Source: Saccoglossus kowalevskii (taxonomy: Eukaryota; Hemichordata; Enteropneusta; Harrimaniidae). Taken from it: DNA of 39,486 bases. The translations under genes and the position numbers were made by a program. The DNA lies in the NCBI RefSeq assembly GCF_000003605.2, contig NW_003120422.1, positions 415,215 through 454,700 of the forward strand, in the 5' to 3' direction. Below, in pieces: positions 9,245 through 35,505 of this stretch; the first letter of the stretch is position 1, and every line of letters begins with the position of its first letter. The notes below the pieces were generated by a model. The model ran no database searches. It was not told the origin of the DNA and was given only the letters and a program-made list of their open reading frames with translations.

Positions 9245-9605
9245 AAATTCAGACAAATTTTGGAGTGCTAGTGCTGCCACAGAAGTCATATTCATGTTTG
9301 GGACTACATGACAGGCCATCTCCTATCAAATGGAAATTTGAATGCACTATCCTGGCGACAACCAGGTCAAACACCACCTGCAGTCCTTAACCAAGGTTTC
9401 CCAAATGTCGCATTCCCGTCGCATTTGTTAGTGAAATTTCTCAGCCAGTAGAATTGGCCTTCCCATTGAGTCTGTGGCACACTCACCCAGGGTAGGGGTT
9501 GAACACCTTTGATGTATAGCCAAAGGCTGGATTTGAACTTGGGTCTACCAATCATGAGTCTGATGCGACAACCAGTGACCACTATGCTACCAGTGATGAC
9601 AATTT
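9245..9605 (-). mobile_element. tRNA-derived SINE
   Basis: Read on the minus strand the element starts near 9605 with a tRNA-like head: an A box TGGTAGCATAGTGGT at 9592-9578 and a B box GTTCAAATCC at 9538-9529, the RNA polymerase III promoter arrangement. A body follows containing GGGTGAGTGTG and CAGACTCAATGGGAAGGC, then GGTTAAGGACTGCAGG, CCAGGATAGTGCATT and CATGTAGTCCCAAACA. Parts of the body recur at 19083-19260 and the head plus first body part at 37255-37420, both on the plus strand, so this is a dispersed family. Overlapping open frames on both strands are not genes. Confidence 0.85.
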
Positions 9606-16926: not shown

Positions 16927-17817
16927 TTATTTTCTGCCAGAAAGTTGTACTTTACATGACTGTTTAAATCCAGAAAACAAAAATATCTAGCTACCAACTA
17001 TTTTGCATATAGTGTGCAATCACATCATACAAAGTACCCTCCTCTTCCAAGCCCCCCCCCCCATTTTACATGATTCACCCCTAACTTGAACCTTTGAATG
17101 CAAAACTGCATATGCATGTATGTATCCTAAAATGAATGATTATGTGTTTGAACTTGATCAGTCTAGGTCTGTGATCCAGGCATGTCGGAGATTTCAGGTG
17201 CAGACGGCCGAACGCACGCACACATGCACGAGGTAAAATTATAATTTTTATTTTAATTTCCTCCTAAATGAATATTAATTTTTATTTTATTTTTATTTAT
17301 CTGCTTTTCCTAGCATGTAAGTTCATTGAAGGGTAAAAACTTTTTTTATCCTAACTGAATTCTTATCATGCAAAAGTCATTTTATTTTAACCCAGGTAAA
17401 AAAATGTGGAATATGTATACTGCAAATGTGACAAAATTATATATTACAGAAATAAAGTTCTGTATTCTACAATATCTTTTGATATTGCCAGTAAGCCGAC
17501 AGCTGTCTAAAATCATGGGAATTTGAATCAGTCACTGTTGTCTTGTCCTCAATTACCCCCCTAATTATAAAATTGTCAATCCCTTAACTACTGTCTATTT
17601 TAATTTTTAATTTCTATTTTAAATCTTTATTTTTATTTTAATTGATGCCCATGCTCTCTTTGCTTTCAACTGCCTGACAGAGGGACTTATAAAGTTCAAC
17701 CGTGCATAATTCATGTACGAGTTACGCAGAATACAACTGTCTTATAACAGTAGTCTGCCGCCGCCGCATCGGTTCTTATAAGAACAAGACTACATAATCA
17801 CCACCGGGATCCCCAGG
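16927..17817. other. Non-coding, low complexity and dispersed-repeat fragment
   Basis: C11 run at 17052-17062. At 17150-17225 a fragment (GTTTGAACTTGATCA, GGCATGTCGGAGAT, GCAGACGG) resembles 25345-25385 and looks like one dispersed repeat. TTCTTATAAGAA at 17773-17784 is a 12-base palindrome within a larger imperfect hairpin (AGTAGTCT...AGACTAC). T/A-rich 17240-17300 and 17600-17645. Confidence 0.4.
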
Positions 17818-17842
17818 CTATTCAGATACCATTTCAGCCCAG
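17818..17842 (-). CDS. Gene X, tentative terminal exon
   Basis: A minus-strand acceptor (GATGTTGTCAGGCAG) is followed by a frame that completes the split Arg codon of the preceding exon and adds WAEMVSE before a TAG stop. The intron (17843-17944) would be 102 bp, short like the 155-bp intron upstream. Support is only acceptor shape and phase agreement. An alternative is that the donor at 17944 splices to a more distant exon. Confidence 0.3.
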
Positions 17843-17944
17843 CTGCCTGACAACATCAAAACACCAATCAAAAGACAGTCAATTTAAGAACATACAACTG
17901 AATATGAAATTAAAACACGCTTAACAAAGAGTTCGTGTACTCAC

Positions 17945-18136
17945 CGGTCGTTCCCGCCGGCTACGTCTTCAGTATAAAATTTTCCCACAGAAAGTTGAGA
18001 AGCCTGGAGCAAAACTGTCGCAGGTTCTACTTTCAAGAGTTTAAATAATTCACTAATTTGATGTTGGCTCCCTGTTGTTAACAGTTCACTCTGAAGCTTA
18101 CTTGTACATGTATCACCATCAATATGAACTTGATGA
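17945..18136 (-). CDS. Gene X, exon encoding a helical segment (unknown protein)
   Basis: A 192-nt open segment bounded by a good acceptor (CATTGCTTTTGCCAG) and a strong donor (CCG|GTGAGT). It begins and ends in phase 2 and joins the upstream exon without a shift. It encodes about 64 residues, beginning HQVHIDGDTC and ending GKFYTEDVAGGND, with leucine-rich segments such as SELFKLLKV and TVLLQAS that look alpha-helical. Codon choice and balanced base composition differ from the surrounding AT-rich DNA. I do not recognise the family. Starting the exon at the earlier TAG|GTGGTC acceptor would break the frame with the upstream exon. Confidence 0.6.
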
Positions 18137-18291
18137 CTGGCAAAAGCAATGAATTTACAGACCACCTAACTTACTTGAAATTAATCTACAAGTTCATAAC
18201 TTTCCTCTCCGAAGAAATTTTACATTCAAGACTTTTTTTCAAAGTAAAAATATTATTATCATTGTACCCTTGCAACAGCAAAGAAGCTTAC

Positions 18292-18488
18292 CGATATTGT
18301 TGACAGTTCAGAACTAATTTGGGAAAAATTTGTAACAGATTTTGGAATAATTTTCTTCTTTCCAGATTTGTTTTGGATCTCTGCCAGGGTGTCTCGAATT
18401 CAATGGTGTAATTTTCACAACTGTAGGACCGAACCATTTTACTGACAGGGGTGTGTACTGGCATGTAATCTAACGTAACACAATGAAA
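18292..18488 (-). CDS. Gene X, exon encoding Cys-containing segment (unknown protein)
   Basis: A 197-nt open segment after a textbook acceptor (TTTGTGTATTTTCAG) and before donor CG|GTAAGC. It starts in phase 0 and ends in phase 2, matching the next exon across a 155-bp intron. It encodes 65 residues including YMPVHTPVSKMVRSYSCEN, an N-Y-T glycosylation sequon, ETPWQRSKTNLERRKLF and a leucine-rich stretch NLLQIFPKLVLNC. Three Cys in this exon and one in the next suit an extracellular protein, but the family is unknown to me. It could also be an internal exon of a larger protein. It is not part of the navigator CH domain. Confidence 0.6.
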
Positions 18489-18738
18489 CTGAAAATACAC
18501 AAATCATAGGAAATGCATCATCATTTTCATAAAATTGCTTTTCAACTCAAACATTATTTTTTACTTCCTTGCTTCCTTATAGCTAAAATCAAGTTCCCTC
18601 AGATTAAAACTTGTCAATCCTATTCTAAAATGGTAGAGCCTCTTCCAAATATGGTAATTCCTATCACTGAATATCATAGGTTTATCTAGTTAATAGGAAT
18701 GTATCACTTTTACAAGCATCTCTGGCTGTCCAAATTAC

Positions 18739-18777
18739 AGCAAATATATATAGTATCTGTGAATGACGAGTTGCCAT
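18739..18777 (-). CDS. Gene X, tentative first exon (signal-peptide-like)
   Basis: ATG at 18777 lies in an excellent Kozak context (CATCACCATGGCA). The 13 codons encode MATRHSQILYIFA; joined in phase 0 to the next exon this gives a hydrophobic run ILYIFAFHCVTL after a basic N-terminus, typical of a signal peptide. The donor CT|GTAATT is weak, and this is the main doubt. With the other three segments the reading frame totals 453 nt, 150 residues plus stop. Confidence 0.3.
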
Positions 18778-19082
18778 GGTGATGACTTACAGTAATTACA
18801 TTGAGAATATTCACAAAAATATTTATTTTTTTAAATCCTGTATGCAAAATGCATTTTTTATTGTTATATTTCTGTTAGTAACTTTTTCATCAGTTGTTAC
18901 TAAAATTAAAGGATAACAACAGTTACTGAATCTGAACTCTGCATCAGACTACAATTTTAAAATATATTTAAAATTCTCTTTCTCGGAACATAACAATATA
19001 ATAGTTTGGGATTAAGTTTGAGACGGTGGCATCATCACCTAGGTGTAGCTGATCAATTCTTAATCAAATTCTAAGTTCACTT
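18778..19082. other. 5' flank of gene X, AT-rich
   Basis: On the minus strand AATAAATATTTT about 40 bases before the ATG could serve as a TATA-like element. Nothing else was seen. Confidence 0.3.
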
Positions 19083-19260
19083 ACGAATGCGACTTTGGGG
19101 GAGCCTTGGTTAAGGTCCGCAGGTGCTTGTGTTTGACTGAGCCTGGTTGACGCCAGGATAGCGCATTAAATTGCCATTTGATATGTAGATGGTCGCACAG
19201 CTATGTCATGTAGTCCCAAACAGGAAATGAATTCTGTGGCAAATTGCACTATGTGTCAGC
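19083..19260 (+). mobile_element. SINE body fragment
   Basis: GAATGCGACTTTGGGGGAGC, CCTTGGTTAAGG, CGCCAGGATAGCGCATTAAA, CATGTAGTCCCAAACA and TTCTGTGGCA match the body of the SINE at 9245-9605 in order. The tRNA-like head is absent. An A12 run follows at about 19266. Confidence 0.85.
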
Positions 19261-20514
19261 AGTACAAAAAAAAAAAAGTCAAGAGAGACAACAGTGACAA
19301 AACGTCCAAAAATGTCGCCTGTCACAAAAACATTTAAAATTCTAAGTCCAGAAATTCAATTATCCGCACAGAGCAACGACTACTATCGGTAATATGATCA
19401 AACAAGTCGGTTATTGTGAAGCTCAGTGATATTACAAGATCTGGACAACAACAGAAATTACCAGAAACTGACAATAATCTGGTAAATATCTGTCTTATCC
19501 CCCATTACCAATGCAGTGACGTTCCCCATCCATGTACATGCAAGGGAAATCAGCATGTGTGGCCTCAACTTTTCAGTACAGGTACGCCTTGAACGTGGCG
19601 GACAGTGACTGCGCTCAGACAAAAAAAAAATGTGTTTGATTAATTTCTGTCATATTTCCAAACGTCCAAGCAGTAGAACATACTATTCGCGTGTGGTCAT
19701 GGTAATACCGTTGTGAACTGCACGTTTGTATCTGACAACAGATCTACGGTTGGTCAACCGTGCGCAACATGCTAACATACGATCCTCTCATTACGCCATG
19801 TGTTCGGGGTAATAGTAAACTCATAATGGAGCACAAAGTTTATCAAGACATGATGGTGTTGATGATTATACGATACAAACACTAAAAAGATGCAGCTGGA
19901 ACTGAGACAAGTGAAAAAATATCTCTGTAAAATGCTGACTTTTACAACAAGGATATTCACCTATTTCACAAGGTTGGTTTGGGAAATGCTTCTTATGAAA
20001 AGCAGATCTTTTGAAATGATAGAATCAAGAAAATGCTGTGTTGCAGCAAGCGGAGTGAAAACAGACTGCCTCTTACACAACCAGATAGATTTCTTCCCAC
20101 GAAAAATATCTCTGCCCCCCCCCCCTCTATATTTCTAAAAATGTACATTTTGAATTTTAATATGCATAACATGATATATACGGTTTTGCAGGTTTGTCAC
20201 GTGACTCAATCTGACCAATCAGAAGCAATTGTTGACCTTATTTGCATATTCAAATCTATTTTTAATAACAAATGCAGAAATGATCTGTATCATCTGTTTA
20301 TTTAAGAACAAATTCAAAATATAATTCCTCCCCACTCCCCCGAGGTTGACACAACTATGAGGAATTGACACCTTAGCACAGTTATTCTATGTTACAAGTA
20401 CTAATTAAATTCATCACCTTAATTATAATTTAAGCCTGATAACAGTCAGTTTTAAAGTGAAGACACAATTAGTCCAGTCACATGAGTAATAAACATAATA
20501 ACATCATTATCAAT
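19261..20514. other. Non-coding, with one open plus-strand stretch
   Basis: 19267-19396 (+) is open for over 40 codons (MSPVTKTFKILSPEIQLSAQ) and ends at a donor-like CG|GTAATA, but no acceptor was found. C11 run at 20115-20125. The remainder is featureless up to the assembly gap. Confidence 0.35.
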
Positions 20515-20628
20515 NNNNNNNNNNNNNNNNNNNNNNNNNNNNNNNNNNNNNNNNNNNNNNNNNNNNNNNNNNNNNNNNNNNNNNNNNNNNNNNNNNNNNN
20601 NNNNNNNNNNNNNNNNNNNNNNNNNNNN
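20515..20628. other. Assembly gap (114 N)
   Basis: Run of N. True length is unknown. It lies where a downstream navigator exon could be hidden. Confidence 0.99.
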
Positions 20629-20788
20629 CTTAATTGTGACAATATTTTATCAACCTTCTAACTTATCACCTATATTCCCCAATCTGGGTAATGGAATGAC
20701 CCTATTGTTAGCCAGACATGGAATATTCCATTGACGAGTCATATGGAGGTGGAGAACAAACTAATTCCCTGTCTGGATAATGGAATAA

Positions 20789-20986
20789 CTATTGTGGAAT
20801 ACTTTATTTTCGCTGGAATTAATTTTCGCTGAAAAGGCGTTTTGGGCGTTTTGTACATGGAATTGATTTTCACTGATTTTTGATGAGTTTAATTTGAAAT
20901 ATAGGAAAAAAAGTATATTCGCTGGATTTTATTTTCACGGGATCATCCTTTCAGCGAAAATAGCGAAAATAAAGTATTCTACAGTA
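20789..20986 (+). mobile_element. MITE family A copy 5
   Basis: TGTGGAATACTTTATTTTCG at the left, AAAGTATTCTACAGTA at the right. The interior GGCGTTTTGGGCGTTTTGTA and GGAAAAAAAGTATATTCGC nearly match copy 1, including the TGTGG terminal variant. It and copy 1 form a recent subfamily. It lacks the second GCGAAAATAA half-repeat at the right end. Confidence 0.9.
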
Positions 20987-21249
20987 TATTGTTAGTTAAG
21001 TATGGGATATTCCATTAATAGATAATAGGGGTGAAGAGGTTAATTCAAAATATACTAGTTTAAAATTATGTAAGTATGGAACTAATTGAAGAAACTGATT
21101 GTTGCAGTATGTTCCTTATTACTGTTTTTGACCTTTGACCTGCCCTCAAACATTATAAACAATTTCGCATAATAAGGTGTTTTTTTTTGTATTGCACACT
21201 CTAAATTCTAAAATTCTTATTTTTCACCCAAATTAATTTATTTACCACA

Positions 21250-21469
21250 TACTGTCAAATAATTTATTTCGCTTGGAATTTCTTATAACTGAAGGAATGA
21301 TTCAGTGAAAATAAAACCAAGTAGTGAATATAGCTTTTCTTATATGTTTCTGTATGTTACATTCAACTCACTCAACTCATTCAAAAATCACTGAAAAACT
21401 CTACAAAACACCAAACTAATTTTTTTCAGTGAAAATTAACTCCAGCTAAAATAATTGTATTTTACAGTA
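21250..21469 (-). mobile_element. MITE family A copy 6
   Basis: TACTGTCAAATAATTTATTT at the left and TGTATTTTACAGTA at the right. Interior ACTGAAGGAATGATTCAGTG and CTACAAAACACC in reverse orientation. A small internal expansion of CAACTCA is present. Confidence 0.85.
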
Positions 21470-22639
21470 TCAGTTTTAGAATGTTAATAACTACCACATT
21501 GATTGTTGGTCAAAGTTGTGGTTTCATTCAAGCAATGCTGCTCACCAAATTCAGTTCTAAAACCACTTTCCCATCATTATTAACAATAGAGTAACTGTTT
21601 GTTGATATCTATTACATCTTATTTTCAAATGGTAAGCTATAATGGCAACAGTCAGAAATGAGCTAGGCTATATATAGAGGCGGGAAATAGGAAATACTGC
21701 CCCAAACCTAAACAATGTGGTATCTATTATTTCCGCTGTAGTACTGGTACATTAACATTGGGCAAGCTGTGCCGGAATAGTTAAACTCAAACCAGCCATA
21801 CGTCAAGTGGACGGATAGTAAGTTTTTAAACTGTCTACAAACTAATTATTTTTTTCATTAAATAATGAATACTAATTCAAAGGCAAATAAAAACAAAAGT
21901 CATTAGCAAAAATGTAATAATTGTGTTATTTAGAGCAAAACTGGAAAAAAAACAACTTCTAATTACATGTACCGGGGGGTACTAGTAATGTAATACTACA
22001 AGGACAGACAAAAAAAATTGTTTTCCTTTTTTTGCCCAAAAGCAGGAAACAAGGGTGTTTTATTTTTGTTTTTTTTGCCAAAAAGTTTAAAGGTTTATAC
22101 TCATCTTGAATGTCAAGCAAATCCAGAAAAAAAAATTTGAAAAATTTAATCTGGTAGGTGCAAGTGTCTCAAGAACAAAAATTTGTTTTGGTCTTGTCAA
22201 CTTCAAACAGGTTATTAAAAAATTTGACACTAAAATGAAACAATATGTATGAATTTGAATGCACAGAAAAACAGAAATCACAATCAGGCAAAACGATATT
22301 ACTGCTTAAGCAAGGGGAAAAAATAAACACGATTCTGGTCAATTTGGTCTTTAAAAATTCATGTTGACGTACAATTTTACTTTACAATTATCATGCAAAT
22401 TCCTTGACAAAAACAAAACAGAAAGGATGTGATGTCACATTTGTAACTGAAAACTAGAAACCTAAACATTTCTGGATCTAAAACAAACTACCAGATAATA
22501 TTAAACTGTTCTAATCCAAGCTATGACCTGATAAGGTGAAGGCCATGGGAACAAATAATTTAAAAACAATACTGCCATTTTATTGTTCTCTCATAAAAAG
22601 TAGGACACAAGTAATCAAATAGACCATTTTCCGTTCACT
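21470..22639. other. Non-coding, no gene recognised
   Basis: A minus-strand frame at 21556-21600 (NDGKVVLELNL) ends at GTGAGC but has no convincing acceptor. The rest is AT-rich with homopolymers. Confidence 0.4.
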
Positions 22640-23010
22640 GCGAGAATCACGCGTTATGCGTGAAATCGAACGTAAAAACAGGACAAACAAAGGTCATAGC
22701 GTCGTAGTCGCGTCAAACATCGCGTGGGATTCGACAAACGCGAAAGTATTTCGGGGACATTTCCATGCTTAATAATGTGCTGTCCACATTTGATGATAGG
22801 CAATTTGGATTAAGTAAGGGTATTCGGAAGCAATATTCCTCTGTCGAAAGATCGGCCGGTCAATGTAAGCTGCGAAATAAAGAAATTCGAGTTCAAAATC
22901 AAATCGTTCGATTTTTGCGGCAGACGTTCGACACGCGTCTTCATGCATCTCGCGAGATCTTCGCAATTGTTCGGAAAACAAGGTCAAAAGCTCAATATCA
23001 GATAAAAAAC
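22640..23010. promoter_or_regulatory. CpG-rich block, possible unmethylated island
   Basis: Dense CpG (ACGCGTTATGCG, GTCGTAGTCGCGTC, ATCGCGTGGG, CGACACGCGTC, TCTCGCGAGATC) in otherwise CpG-poor DNA. About 310 bases are open on both strands (103 codons plus, 109 codons minus), which the low density of AT-rich stop codons would itself produce. It could be a promoter with a first exon, or a young repeat not yet CpG-decayed. Strand and function are undetermined. Confidence 0.4.
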
Positions 23011-23632
23011 TTATTTGCTTTAGTTTGCGGGTGGGGGGGGTTTTGTTCTCAAAAAGTTTCCACCCTACAAAAATGATTTTATTTTTTAATGAAGTCAAAA
23101 AAATCTTGGAGTATTTGTAGTTTTTTTCTCTCTATCCAATCATGGACAAAAATAACAGAAAATGAAAAAAAACACATCCAAGACGAGAAAATGGTTTGCT
23201 TCGAGTGTAAATATGTGCGTCAAATACTATGCCATACTACTGTCCGATTATCAATTTGTATTTAATGGTGAATGTAGTCTGACGCCATGGTCAATATTTA
23301 TCAATTAAGTTTCAGTGGGGGTGGGGGGTTTGAGAAAAAAAAACTAAAGGAATTAAGTTTTTTATCCTACATTGAACTTTTGATGTTGTCCCTAAGTTAG
23401 TATACTAAAGAGAAATGCTTTGCTAGAGATGTCTTCACAGGTGTTGAATCAATCAAGTATACACCAACAGACACACAGACAAAATGTCTGCCTCTGTATC
23501 AAAGCCCAGGTCACTTCAGGTTAATGGAGGCTTAATGTCATTTCTATATGCCTCTCATTTATTGCTTTTGTACAATGAGTTGCTGTTACACAACAGGACA
23601 CACAGGCAATCATCTCAAATAGCCAAGTTGTT
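23011..23632. other. Non-coding, nothing recognised
   Basis: Contains G-runs (GGGTGGGGGGGG at about 23029 and GGGGGTGGGGGG at about 23317). The 77-codon plus frame at 23484-23717 is unsupported. Confidence 0.4.
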
Positions 23633-23645
23633 GTTGCTAGGCAAC
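23633..23645. promoter_or_regulatory. RFX X-box-like palindrome
   Basis: GTTGCTAGGCAAC is a perfect-length X-box (GTTGCY..RGCAAC), the binding site of RFX transcription factors that control ciliary genes in animals. It lies about 2 kb downstream of CH exon 1 in a presumed intron. A single 13-base hit is weak evidence of function. Confidence 0.3.
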
Positions 23646-23801
23646 TATGCACATAATGGTGACAATCTGACAATCCATATAGCTTTTAAACTTAAAATTT
23701 TGCCTTATAGTTGTTGAGGTTTTCTGAAAGTTTCAAAAATATTTTGAAAATATGAATATTTATGTACAAACCGATTGAGTGACACAAAATGTAACTACCG
23801 G

Positions 23802-24009
23802 TACTGTGAAATATTTATTTTAGTTGAAATAATTTTCGCTGAAAACACTTTTCAGACATTTTGTATGGAATTTATTTTCACTGATCTTTGACGAGTTATA
23901 TAAAATATAGAAAAAAGTGTTTATTTGCTGGATTTTATTTTCACTGAAAATTCCTTCAGTGAGAATAGTAAAAATTAATTCAAAGCGAAAATAAAGAATG
24001 TTACAATAT
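23802..24009 (+). mobile_element. MITE family A copy 7
   Basis: TACTGTGAAATATTTATTTT at the left; decayed right end GAAAATAAAGAATGTTACAA. Interior TTTTGTATGGAATTTATTTT and TTGCTGGATTTTATTTTCAC are intact. It lies in a presumed navigator intron. Confidence 0.85.
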
Positions 24010-24254
24010 ACAGTGTCTTCTTGGTATCTCTATATATATAGTACAAGACATCACCGCGGGGTAACAGACGGAAAATATATTAAACTTGTGAAAAATCATA
24101 GCTAAATGGTCTCATCCTGGAATTAATACTGCACATAATCAGTAACATAGCAACCAGAAGACTGAAAACTTTTATGTATTGTCTAGGAGGTGGAGAGAAA
24201 ATATTATACTATCTGCAATGAGCAATGCATTTATTTGATACACAAATCCGGCTA

Positions 24255-24425
24255 TGGGGGGAGGGAAGGCGACAGAGAAAATGTTTATAAATTCATCTTA
24301 CTTTACAGAGGGAGGGACAGTTGTAGAAATGACAGCCTCTTGACTCACCTGATTTTCATTACATTCAGAGGGAGGGAAGGTTATAGAGATAACAGCTGAC
24401 TCACCTTGTGATTTTCATTCCGTGG
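24255..24425 (+). repeat. ~60-bp tandem repeat overlapping a splice donor
   Basis: Units begin GAGGGAGGGA at 24308 and 24368 (60-bp period); a more diverged unit starts near 24255. The second and third units both contain TGACTCACC(T)TGATTTTCATT, which on the minus strand is the end of the 24405-24457 exon plus its GTGAGT donor. The duplication has therefore produced a second, decoy donor at 24343-24348. Confidence 0.85.
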
Positions 24426-24457
24426 ATTGCATTTTACATTTTGTACTTTTTCATTTG
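24405..24457 (-). CDS. unc-53/NAV: Neuron navigator, exon encoding middle of CH domain
   Basis: A 53-nt exon between a very strong acceptor (TTTTTGTCTGTTTTTCGCAG) and donor AAG|GTGAGT. Completing the phase-1 codon left by the 25773-25890 exon, it reads TNEKVQNVKCNPRNENHK. Vertebrate navigators continue at this point with an NEKI...I...CPKN-like segment, so order, phase and sequence all agree. It ends in phase 0, before the region where the family has a conserved NID.CL.FL helix. It is the weaker of the two exons by sequence alone because it is short and diverged, but the join is clean. The donor lies within a tandem duplication. Confidence 0.85.
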
Positions 24458-25772: not shown

Positions 25773-25890
25773 TGACTGCTTCAATAACATTGGCTAGGAT
25801 TACTCCATCATGGATATCAAGCTGCAGATCTCCTATAAGCTTTTTAAATCCGGCTCTCTCCAAGTAATGGTTGGCCCAATCCGTGTAGAT
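25773..25890 (-). CDS. unc-53/NAV: Neuron navigator, exon encoding start of CH domain
   Basis: A 118-nt exon bounded by acceptor TTAATTATAG and donor A|GTAAGT. It begins in phase 0 with IYTDWANHYLERAGFKKLIG and continues DLQLDIHDGVILANVIEAV, ending in phase 1. IYTDWAN.(H/Y)L..., DLQ.D..DGV.LA..I..V is the opening of the calponin-homology domain of neuron navigators (NAV2/NAV3, C. elegans UNC-53, fly Sickie). Family knowledge: these are large cytoskeletal proteins with an N-terminal CH domain, Ser/Pro-rich microtubule-binding regions, coiled coils and a C-terminal AAA-type ATPase, acting in cell migration and axon guidance. NAV1 lacks the CH domain. The upstream exon with the start codon was not securely found. 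Confidence 0.93.
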
Positions 25891-27704: not shown

Positions 27705-28508
27705 ATGTTTATAGTTCAACCCAACTGCACTGATGACAATTTCTATTTCAGATGCAATGAGTTTTCAACTCAAGCTTAGGGATGTATCATTTTGTTATTG
27801 GGGGGGTGTGCTACACTAGCCTGAATTTTTATATTTCAAACCTACTACAATGACAATTCTTTTTCATATGGACTTACAATAAGTTTTTGTTTCAAGCTTA
27901 GGGATGTATCATTTTGTTATGGGGGGGGGGGGTGCTACACTAGCCTGAATTTTTATATTTCAAACCTACTACAATGACAATTCTTTTTCATATGGACTTA
28001 CAATAAGTTTTTGTTTCAAGTTTAGGGATGTATCATTTTGTTATTGGGGGGGTGCTACATTAGCCTGAATTTTATTATTTCAAACCTACTAGAATGATAA
28101 TCTTTTTTTCACATTGACTTCCAATAAGTTTTTGGTTCAAGCATAGGGATGTATCATTTTGTTATTTGGGGGGGGGTGCTACATTAGCCTGATTTTTTAT
28201 ATTTCAAACCTACTATACTATAATGGCAATTCTTTTTCATATCGACTTCCAATAAATTGTTGTTTCAAGCTTAGGGATGTGTCATTTTGTCATTTCGGGG
28301 GGTGCTACATTAGCCTGAATTTTATATTTCAAACCTACTATAATGGCAATTCTTTTTCACATCGACTTCCAATAAATTTTTGTTTCAAGTTTAGGGATGT
28401 GTCATTTTGTTATTGGGGGGAATTTTTATATTTCAAACATTCTACAATGAGGAACATTTTCTTTCTTCAAGACTTACAATTAGTTTTCATTCAAAAATAG
28501 AGATATGT
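27705..28508 (+). repeat. ~120-bp satellite array with G tracts, ~6-7 units
   Basis: AGGGATGT(A/G)TCATTTTGT starts units at 27778, 27900, 28024, 28145, 28273 and 28393 (periods 120-128), with degraded half units at both ends. Each unit carries a G tract of 6 to 12 bases, then GTGCTACA(C/T)TAGCCTGA, ATATTTCAAACCTACTA and CAATTCTTTTTCA. Most period variation comes from the G tract and small indels. The plus-strand frame at 28159-28500 is repeat read-through. Confidence 0.95.
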
Positions 28509-34391: not shown

Positions 34392-35205
34392 CCTAAATCA
34401 CGCATTGTTCACTATGAGATAAAAACATGGCAAGGTCACATACATATCCATGGCTTCCCTACAAAACACTTCCATGAAATCCACACACAGTATGGTAACT
34501 GCATGTAAAGTTTGTTTCCTATACAGGTGCATGTAAACCAAATACTATATTTATGTATATACAAGATTATGAAAATATTACTTAGTTTGGCCATGGACAT
34601 ATCTCTTTTCATTTACATGCACTAGTAAAAGCGTAAGGTCTGTTTTTTTTCAAAATTATTCGCAATTGATTGCGATCAACCATAGACACAAATTAAAGTG
34701 ATAGTATTGATGTTAGTCATGGCTAATTGCAAATATCTTAGCTTTAACAATTCTCTTTTGATGCTTAAAACAACAGGAATGATCAAGTGACTTTCAGCAA
34801 ATTTTGTTCTATAAAACATTTGTAAATTATTATTTTTTAAAAACATTCCAGCCTCAAAAATTTATTAATTTCACATCTATTTTTTAACATCACAATCACC
34901 ATTAATGTTCAAATTTTGCGTAATTTTACATACAATACGCTGCAAAAAATTTGTATTTAAACACAATTTAAGTATTTTTCTACTCTTACAACTATATGTT
35001 CTATATTTTTCTTTAACCCTTTCATGCCAAATCCTAAAAATAAGTTAATGATATTTTAAATCGATCATTTGGGCATAAATACAAATAAGTGATTTTGCAT
35101 GTGTGAAAGATGAAGTTAGAACATCTGTTGCAAAAATTAAATGATTTTATTTTGAACTTTTTTCTCTTTTTTATAATACAATTTCAAAATTCTGATCTTT
35201 CAGAG
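34392..35205 (+). other. Presumed gene Y intron
   Basis: AT-rich, ending in a long pyrimidine-rich tract and TTCTGATCTTTCAG. No intermediate exon was seen. Confidence 0.4.
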
Positions 35206-35505
35206 GAAAATATGGTCTTGAGATTCCCTTTTTTCATCAAAATTGACAAATGCGCATATCATAATTGTGGAAATACCCAAGGAATACTTTCACGTTTCAA
35301 ACCACGACAACGCTATGACCTTTGTTTGTCCTGTTTTTTTACGTTTGATTTCACATATAACACGAGATCTCCCGATGAACGGGAAATTGTCTATTATACT
35401 ACATCACCAGCTACAGTAAAGAAGACAATGAAGCAGAGACTGAAAAATGAGCAACCTAAGGGGTCATATCTGATGAGGGATATCCCTACCTTCACAAATC
35501 CTTAA
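35206..35505 (+). CDS. Gene Y, terminal exon with CxxxxC/CxxC zinc-ribbon-like pattern
   Basis: Open from a pyrimidine-rich acceptor (TTCTGATCTTTCAGAG) to TAA, 99 codons. Starting after the second AG gives phase 0, matching the donor at 34203. Starting after the first AG needs a phase-1 partner. The protein begins ENMVLRFPFFIKIDKCAYHN and ends KGSYLMRDIPTFTNP. Cys at exon residues 16, 21, 40 and 43 (CAYHNC and CLSC, 18 residues apart) suit a small zinc-binding module, followed by a basic segment (TVKKTMKQRLKNEQ). The frame stays open upstream to ATG 35110, so a single-exon 131-residue reading is an alternative, though the added part is low complexity. I do not recognise the family. Confidence 0.5.
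   Translation, partial: ENMVLRFPFFIKIDKCAYHNCGNTQGILSRFKPRQRYDLCLSCFFTFDFTYNTRSPDEREIVYYTTSPATVKKTMKQRLKNEQPKGSYLMRDIPTFTNP

Follow-up and report, generated by a model that had tools for sequence, protein, structure and literature searches.

A putative small gene of no recognised family nested in a long navigator intron of Saccoglossus kowalevskii

Two candidate exons on the minus strand of contig NW_003120422.1 of Saccoglossus kowalevskii (NCBI RefSeq assembly GCF_000003605.2) form a putative spliced pair whose arrangement exceeds chance. The single most likely reading of the locus is a small nested protein-coding gene of no recognised family (probability roughly 0.45), about as likely as chance frames and all other readings taken together. 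The exons, 18488 (or 18469)-18292 (exon A) and 18136-17945 (exon B), would belong to a small single-copy gene that shares its strand with navigator and lies in one of its introns, which is longer than 24 kb. All coordinates refer to the analysed window, a stretch of 39,486 nucleotides covering contig positions 415,215 to 454,700, unless a contig position is indicated. A preliminary description had joined four segments into one frame and had proposed a small secreted product. The four segments are unequally backed, with exon B best and the first exon weakest. The locus comprises the following features:

18777-18739, 18488-18292, 18136-17945 and 17842-17818, minus strand: four-segment candidate gene (39+197+192+25 nt)
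18739..18777, minus strand: proposed first exon MATRHSQILYIFA, with good start context and a donor of -2.8; weakly supported
18292..18488, minus strand: candidate exon A of 197 nt, entered in phase 0 and left in phase 2; may begin at 18469 or carry a 5' untranslated region and ATG 18437
18435..18437, minus strand: alternative start codon in exon A, context AAAATGG (A at -3, G at +4)
17945..18136, minus strand: candidate internal exon B of 192 nt, entered and left in phase 2, with 63 full codons and a junction codon
17818..17842, minus strand: possible terminal exon, ending in WAEMVSE and a stop, acceptor 3.0
17834..17846, minus strand: rival terminal exon, ending in QLG and a stop, acceptor 4.2
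17599..17642, minus strand: AATAAA/ATTAAA cluster in A-rich DNA, possible poly(A) signals

Read directly from the window, the four joined minus-strand segments yield 150 codons and a stop, interrupted by introns of 250, 155 and 102 nt with phases 0, 2 and 2; the frame and the intron lengths of the preliminary description were thereby confirmed. The four Cys residues and the single N-Y-T sequon are likewise present in the translation. Considered as a complete frame inside one host intron, the locus has central exons that fit, an uncertain start and end, and an exon A that lacks coding-like composition. All splice scores rest on generic matrices, and the amino-acid frequencies are likewise generic.

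Judged by its sequence, the host gene is NAV (navigator, unc-53), with both the N-terminal CH and the C-terminal AAA-type features of this gene found on the contig. Two NAV exons lie in the window:

25773..25890, minus strand: NAV CH-domain exon (tblastn with a NAV CH domain, E 2e-14, 62.5% identity)
24405..24457, minus strand: probable next NAV CH-domain exon, phase 0 out (weak tblastn match, E 1.3; acceptor 8.2, donor 8.3)

The CH-domain and AAA-region queries were both sequences that we take to represent NAV. The tblastn matches spanned 25890-25771 and 24458-24402, and the DNA itself places the ends of these exons at 25773 and 24405; joined, the two CH exons score 25.9 bits with the Pfam CH profile, just below its cut-off of 26. 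The AAA-type region was recovered in five pieces that share the strand of the CH exons and span contig 279351-282369, the best of them with 80.6% identity over 108 residues (E 3e-57), and the NAV span on the contig is approximately 162 kb. These matches support the location that had been claimed for the candidate, on the host strand in a navigator intron longer than 24 kb, namely the one that follows the second CH exon. Neither the window nor the unmasked contig searched yielded the remainder of the CH domain. Because a further CH exon is absent from the window, the intron measures at least 24.4 kb, a lower bound given that the 56.6 kb beside the window (contig 358602-415215) read as N. The second CH exon has two very strong minus-strand donors 56 nt apart, 24405 (8.3) and 24349 (9.4); use of the latter would add seven residues before a stop and might produce a truncating splice form.

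The competing reading that fares best holds that there is no gene, and that chance open frames happen to lie beside chance splice-like sites in intronic DNA; it is possible, if doubtful. The central exons were set against order-4 Markov strands of 39.5 kb by searching for pairs of phase-compatible segments, each at least 150 nt long and free of stops, that lie 60-500 nt apart and have the observed summed splice score. On either strand of the window, the candidate is the sole locus of this kind. With the thresholds set to the candidate's own values and fixed after the pair had been seen, such pairs occurred in 0/40, 13/1220 and 13/1560 simulated strands (total 26/2820), a rarity that argues against chance, and pairs that also had the observed coding score occurred in 0/1560. 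In 132,150 unmasked contig bases, about 0.06 chance pairs were expected on both strands and three were found. The two others, at contig 348148-349388 and contig 256687-258294, are plainly coding-looking, which also weighs against a chance origin of pairs marked in this way; the former has long, Ser-rich reading frames and falls inside the NAV span, and the frames of the latter are presumably amino-acid transporter-like. Their coding scores are 88 and 74 bits, respectively, compared with -0.3 bits for the candidate, and their exons are 2-4 times longer. That the central exons exceed chance as a spliced pair is supported by these counts.

Other measures are in favour of chance. By a mixed splice and coding score that admits exons from 60 nt, the candidate pair is ordinary: its score was reached by six minus-strand loci (candidate included) and four plus-strand loci, and at least one pair as good turned up in half of 40 simulated strands. 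Frames of 71 and 74 codons, moreover, are common in the window, because 36 stop-to-stop frames of at least 75 codons are listed there.

The codon compositions of the two exons point in different directions. The scores come from a codon model whose training set, 2747 codons of the same genome, comprised 11 stop-free kinase segments, picked from 143 matches, and six NAV pieces; the exons were compared with 41 real coding chunks and with 72 other stretches of 63 codons in the window that are free of stops. Exon B, whose GC content by codon position is 0.57/0.35/0.29, scores +0.131 per codon, a value attained or exceeded by 5/72 of the window stretches and not exceeded by 13/41 of the real chunks. 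Its composition thus resembles that of real exons of the same genome, which speaks against a chance frame, and its donor CCG|GTGAGT is very strong (8.1; acceptor 2.3). Exon A is stop-free, with a donor of 4.5 and an acceptor of -1.3, and scores -0.147 per codon, or -0.203 from ATG 18437 onward; 41/72 of the window stretches score at least as high, and 0/41 of the real chunks as low. The composition of exon A is non-coding-like, as expected if the frames are fortuitous. Young or fast-evolving genes may show such composition, and chance frames do too. The earlier view of both middle exons as the strongest unassigned coding signals was not confirmed: exon B ranks second among the exon-like segments of the whole window, and exon A is not coding-like. 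The first rank is taken by 22800-23030 on the plus strand, part of a high-copy repeat. Antisense or shifted readings of exons A and B are ruled out by the 2 to 8 stops that each of the other frames contains.

The start of the candidate gene depends on where exon A begins. Acceptor 18469 (entry phase 1) scores above acceptor 18488 (phase 0), and the proposed join of the first exon to exon A breaks with its use because the entry phase changes from 0 to 1. Start codons are recognised in a preferred context described by the Kozak rule, and the context of the ATG at 18777 is good, as had been stated. ATG 18437 within exon A is probably the likelier start; translation from it would give a protein of 116 or 120 residues that lacks a signal sequence, and no upstream coding exon would be required.

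Secretion, which the preliminary description had put forward, is not supported. A signal sequence could come only from the first exon, which has a poor donor (-2.8, against 0.9 and 8.3 for the two NAV donors), and the hydrophobic N-terminus and the secretion idea consequently rest on the weakest part of the model. Between 18540 and 20000, 24 possible initial exons exist, nine of which (first exon included) have a donor of at least -2.8. The proposed first exon is the only one of the 24 with a strongly hydrophobic N-terminus, and the hydrophobic 12-mer in question (mean Kyte-Doolittle value 2.12) is present only when this weak exon is used. Secretion was dropped as a main claim, since it depends on the weakest exon. 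From 18520 to 21546 the minus strand has no donor scoring at least 3, and this absence of good upstream donors fits the chance reading.

At the 3' end, two terminal acceptors lie four bases apart, 17846 (leading to QLG and a stop) and 17842 (leading to WAEMVSE and a stop), and either may be used by the candidate gene. The poly(A) site would lie near 17600-17640, where AATAAA/ATTAAA hexamers start at 17642, 17637, 17631, 17611 and 17604. The GC-rich stretch 17720-17820 did not fold better as RNA than its shuffles (z 0.21).

The designation of the protein as unrecognised holds for every library tried, among which the S. kowalevskii genome was the sole animal genome. No match above chance was obtained with Pfam profiles, no relative was found in NCBIfam or in the GTDB contigs and IMG/VR, and PDB contained no match at E 10. 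The profile searches that had been suggested for the central exons were run and revealed no family above cut-off. Two weak, short PHROG matches (E 0.0055 and 0.049; 28 and 27 residues) were treated as chance, as was an alignment of 15 residues of exon A with the C-terminal UBA domain of N4BP1 (PF23054; E 0.077-0.29), which reached 11.4-13.2 bits against a Pfam cut-off of 27 and covered 15 of 47 profile positions. Own-genome searches covered 572 Mb in 4830 contigs: region 17818-18777 has one DNA copy, and the protein search returned the candidate itself and one match at E=2. The gene may be lineage-restricted, to judge from a search in which its own genome was the sole animal genome.

A transposable element or repeat piece is ruled out by the single copy of the region and by the lack of a notable repeat in 17500-19000. 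In this respect the candidate is unlike the repeat open frames at 22708-23131 and 35107-35502. The first of these contains a 122-codon frame on the plus strand and a 120-codon frame on the opposite one; its protein search listed at least 150 genome places (self included) out of 2404 candidates, marking a high-copy interspersed repeat. The second contains a 132-codon plus-strand frame that weakly resembles a ZZ zinc finger (E 0.0074, below cut-off) and belongs to a degenerate repeat family with 26 genome places (self included), many of them with stops. Just upstream of the candidate, 19076-19299 is a local repeat: the unmasked contig has similar sequence at four further places, including approximately 9275-9415 of the window. 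At 27770-28420, a 124-bp unit is repeated in tandem about 5.3 times.

Two further readings accept splicing at the locus and are both improbable. Exons A and B could be alternative last exons of navigator, with donor 24405 (phase 0) joined to acceptor 18488 (phase 0) and a truncated CH-only isoform ending at 17818 or 17834. The phases fit, the strongest upstream minus-strand donors are those at and beside the NAV exon (24405, 8.3; 24349, 9.4), and the sole other donor of at least 3 in 18520-24404 is 21546 (4.2). A phase match is, however, expected by chance in one of three cases, the CH domain would be cut, and the better acceptor 18469 is out of phase. With a comparably small chance, the locus could produce a spliced transcript that is non-coding, or be a gene in decay, its splice sites being used and its frame free of selection. 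Acceptable splice sites and a patchy coding signal are consistent with this, but exons A and B are stop-free over their full length in one compatible frame, an intact paralogue is absent from the own genome, and Rfam contained no RNA family matching the candidate region. The least probable reading is a lineage-restricted, secreted, four-Cys helical protein encoded on the same strand in the navigator intron and co-expressed with navigator, which is very unlikely; if it were true, a neuronal guidance gene would carry a private signalling peptide.

The preferred reading, a small protein-coding gene nested in the navigator intron, would involve its own promoter, short introns and transcription beginning above exon A. 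Translation would yield a small, largely helical protein without a signal sequence. Single-exon AlphaFold models predicted three helices for exon B (mean pLDDT 56) and a hairpin with two helices for exon A (mean pLDDT 54), and they were not used for fold comparison because these mean values are too low. At a guess that is itself unlikely, based on the predicted helices and on the lack of a supported signal sequence, the product might act as a soluble intracellular binding protein.

Intron-nested genes are already known as a class. Among papers on same-strand or lineage-specific nested genes, none concerned the candidate locus by its title, and no paper was found that combines navigator/NAV2 with a nested gene. 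If real, the candidate would be one further orphan among animal nested genes, of a type missed by homology-based annotation. Human nested genes are reported to disturb host splicing and polyadenylation (PMC3192792), and a same-strand nested unit could affect its host in a similar way. Current understanding would be altered by neither point. PMC3786989 puts the nested share of all genes at about 6% for D. melanogaster, 2.1% for C. elegans and 0.5% for human. In the same source, 2mit in tim2 of Drosophila offers a parallel as a gene with short introns that lies wholly within a long intron of a large host gene. Nested genes are there described as frequently located on the opposite strand, whereas the candidate would lie on the strand of its host.
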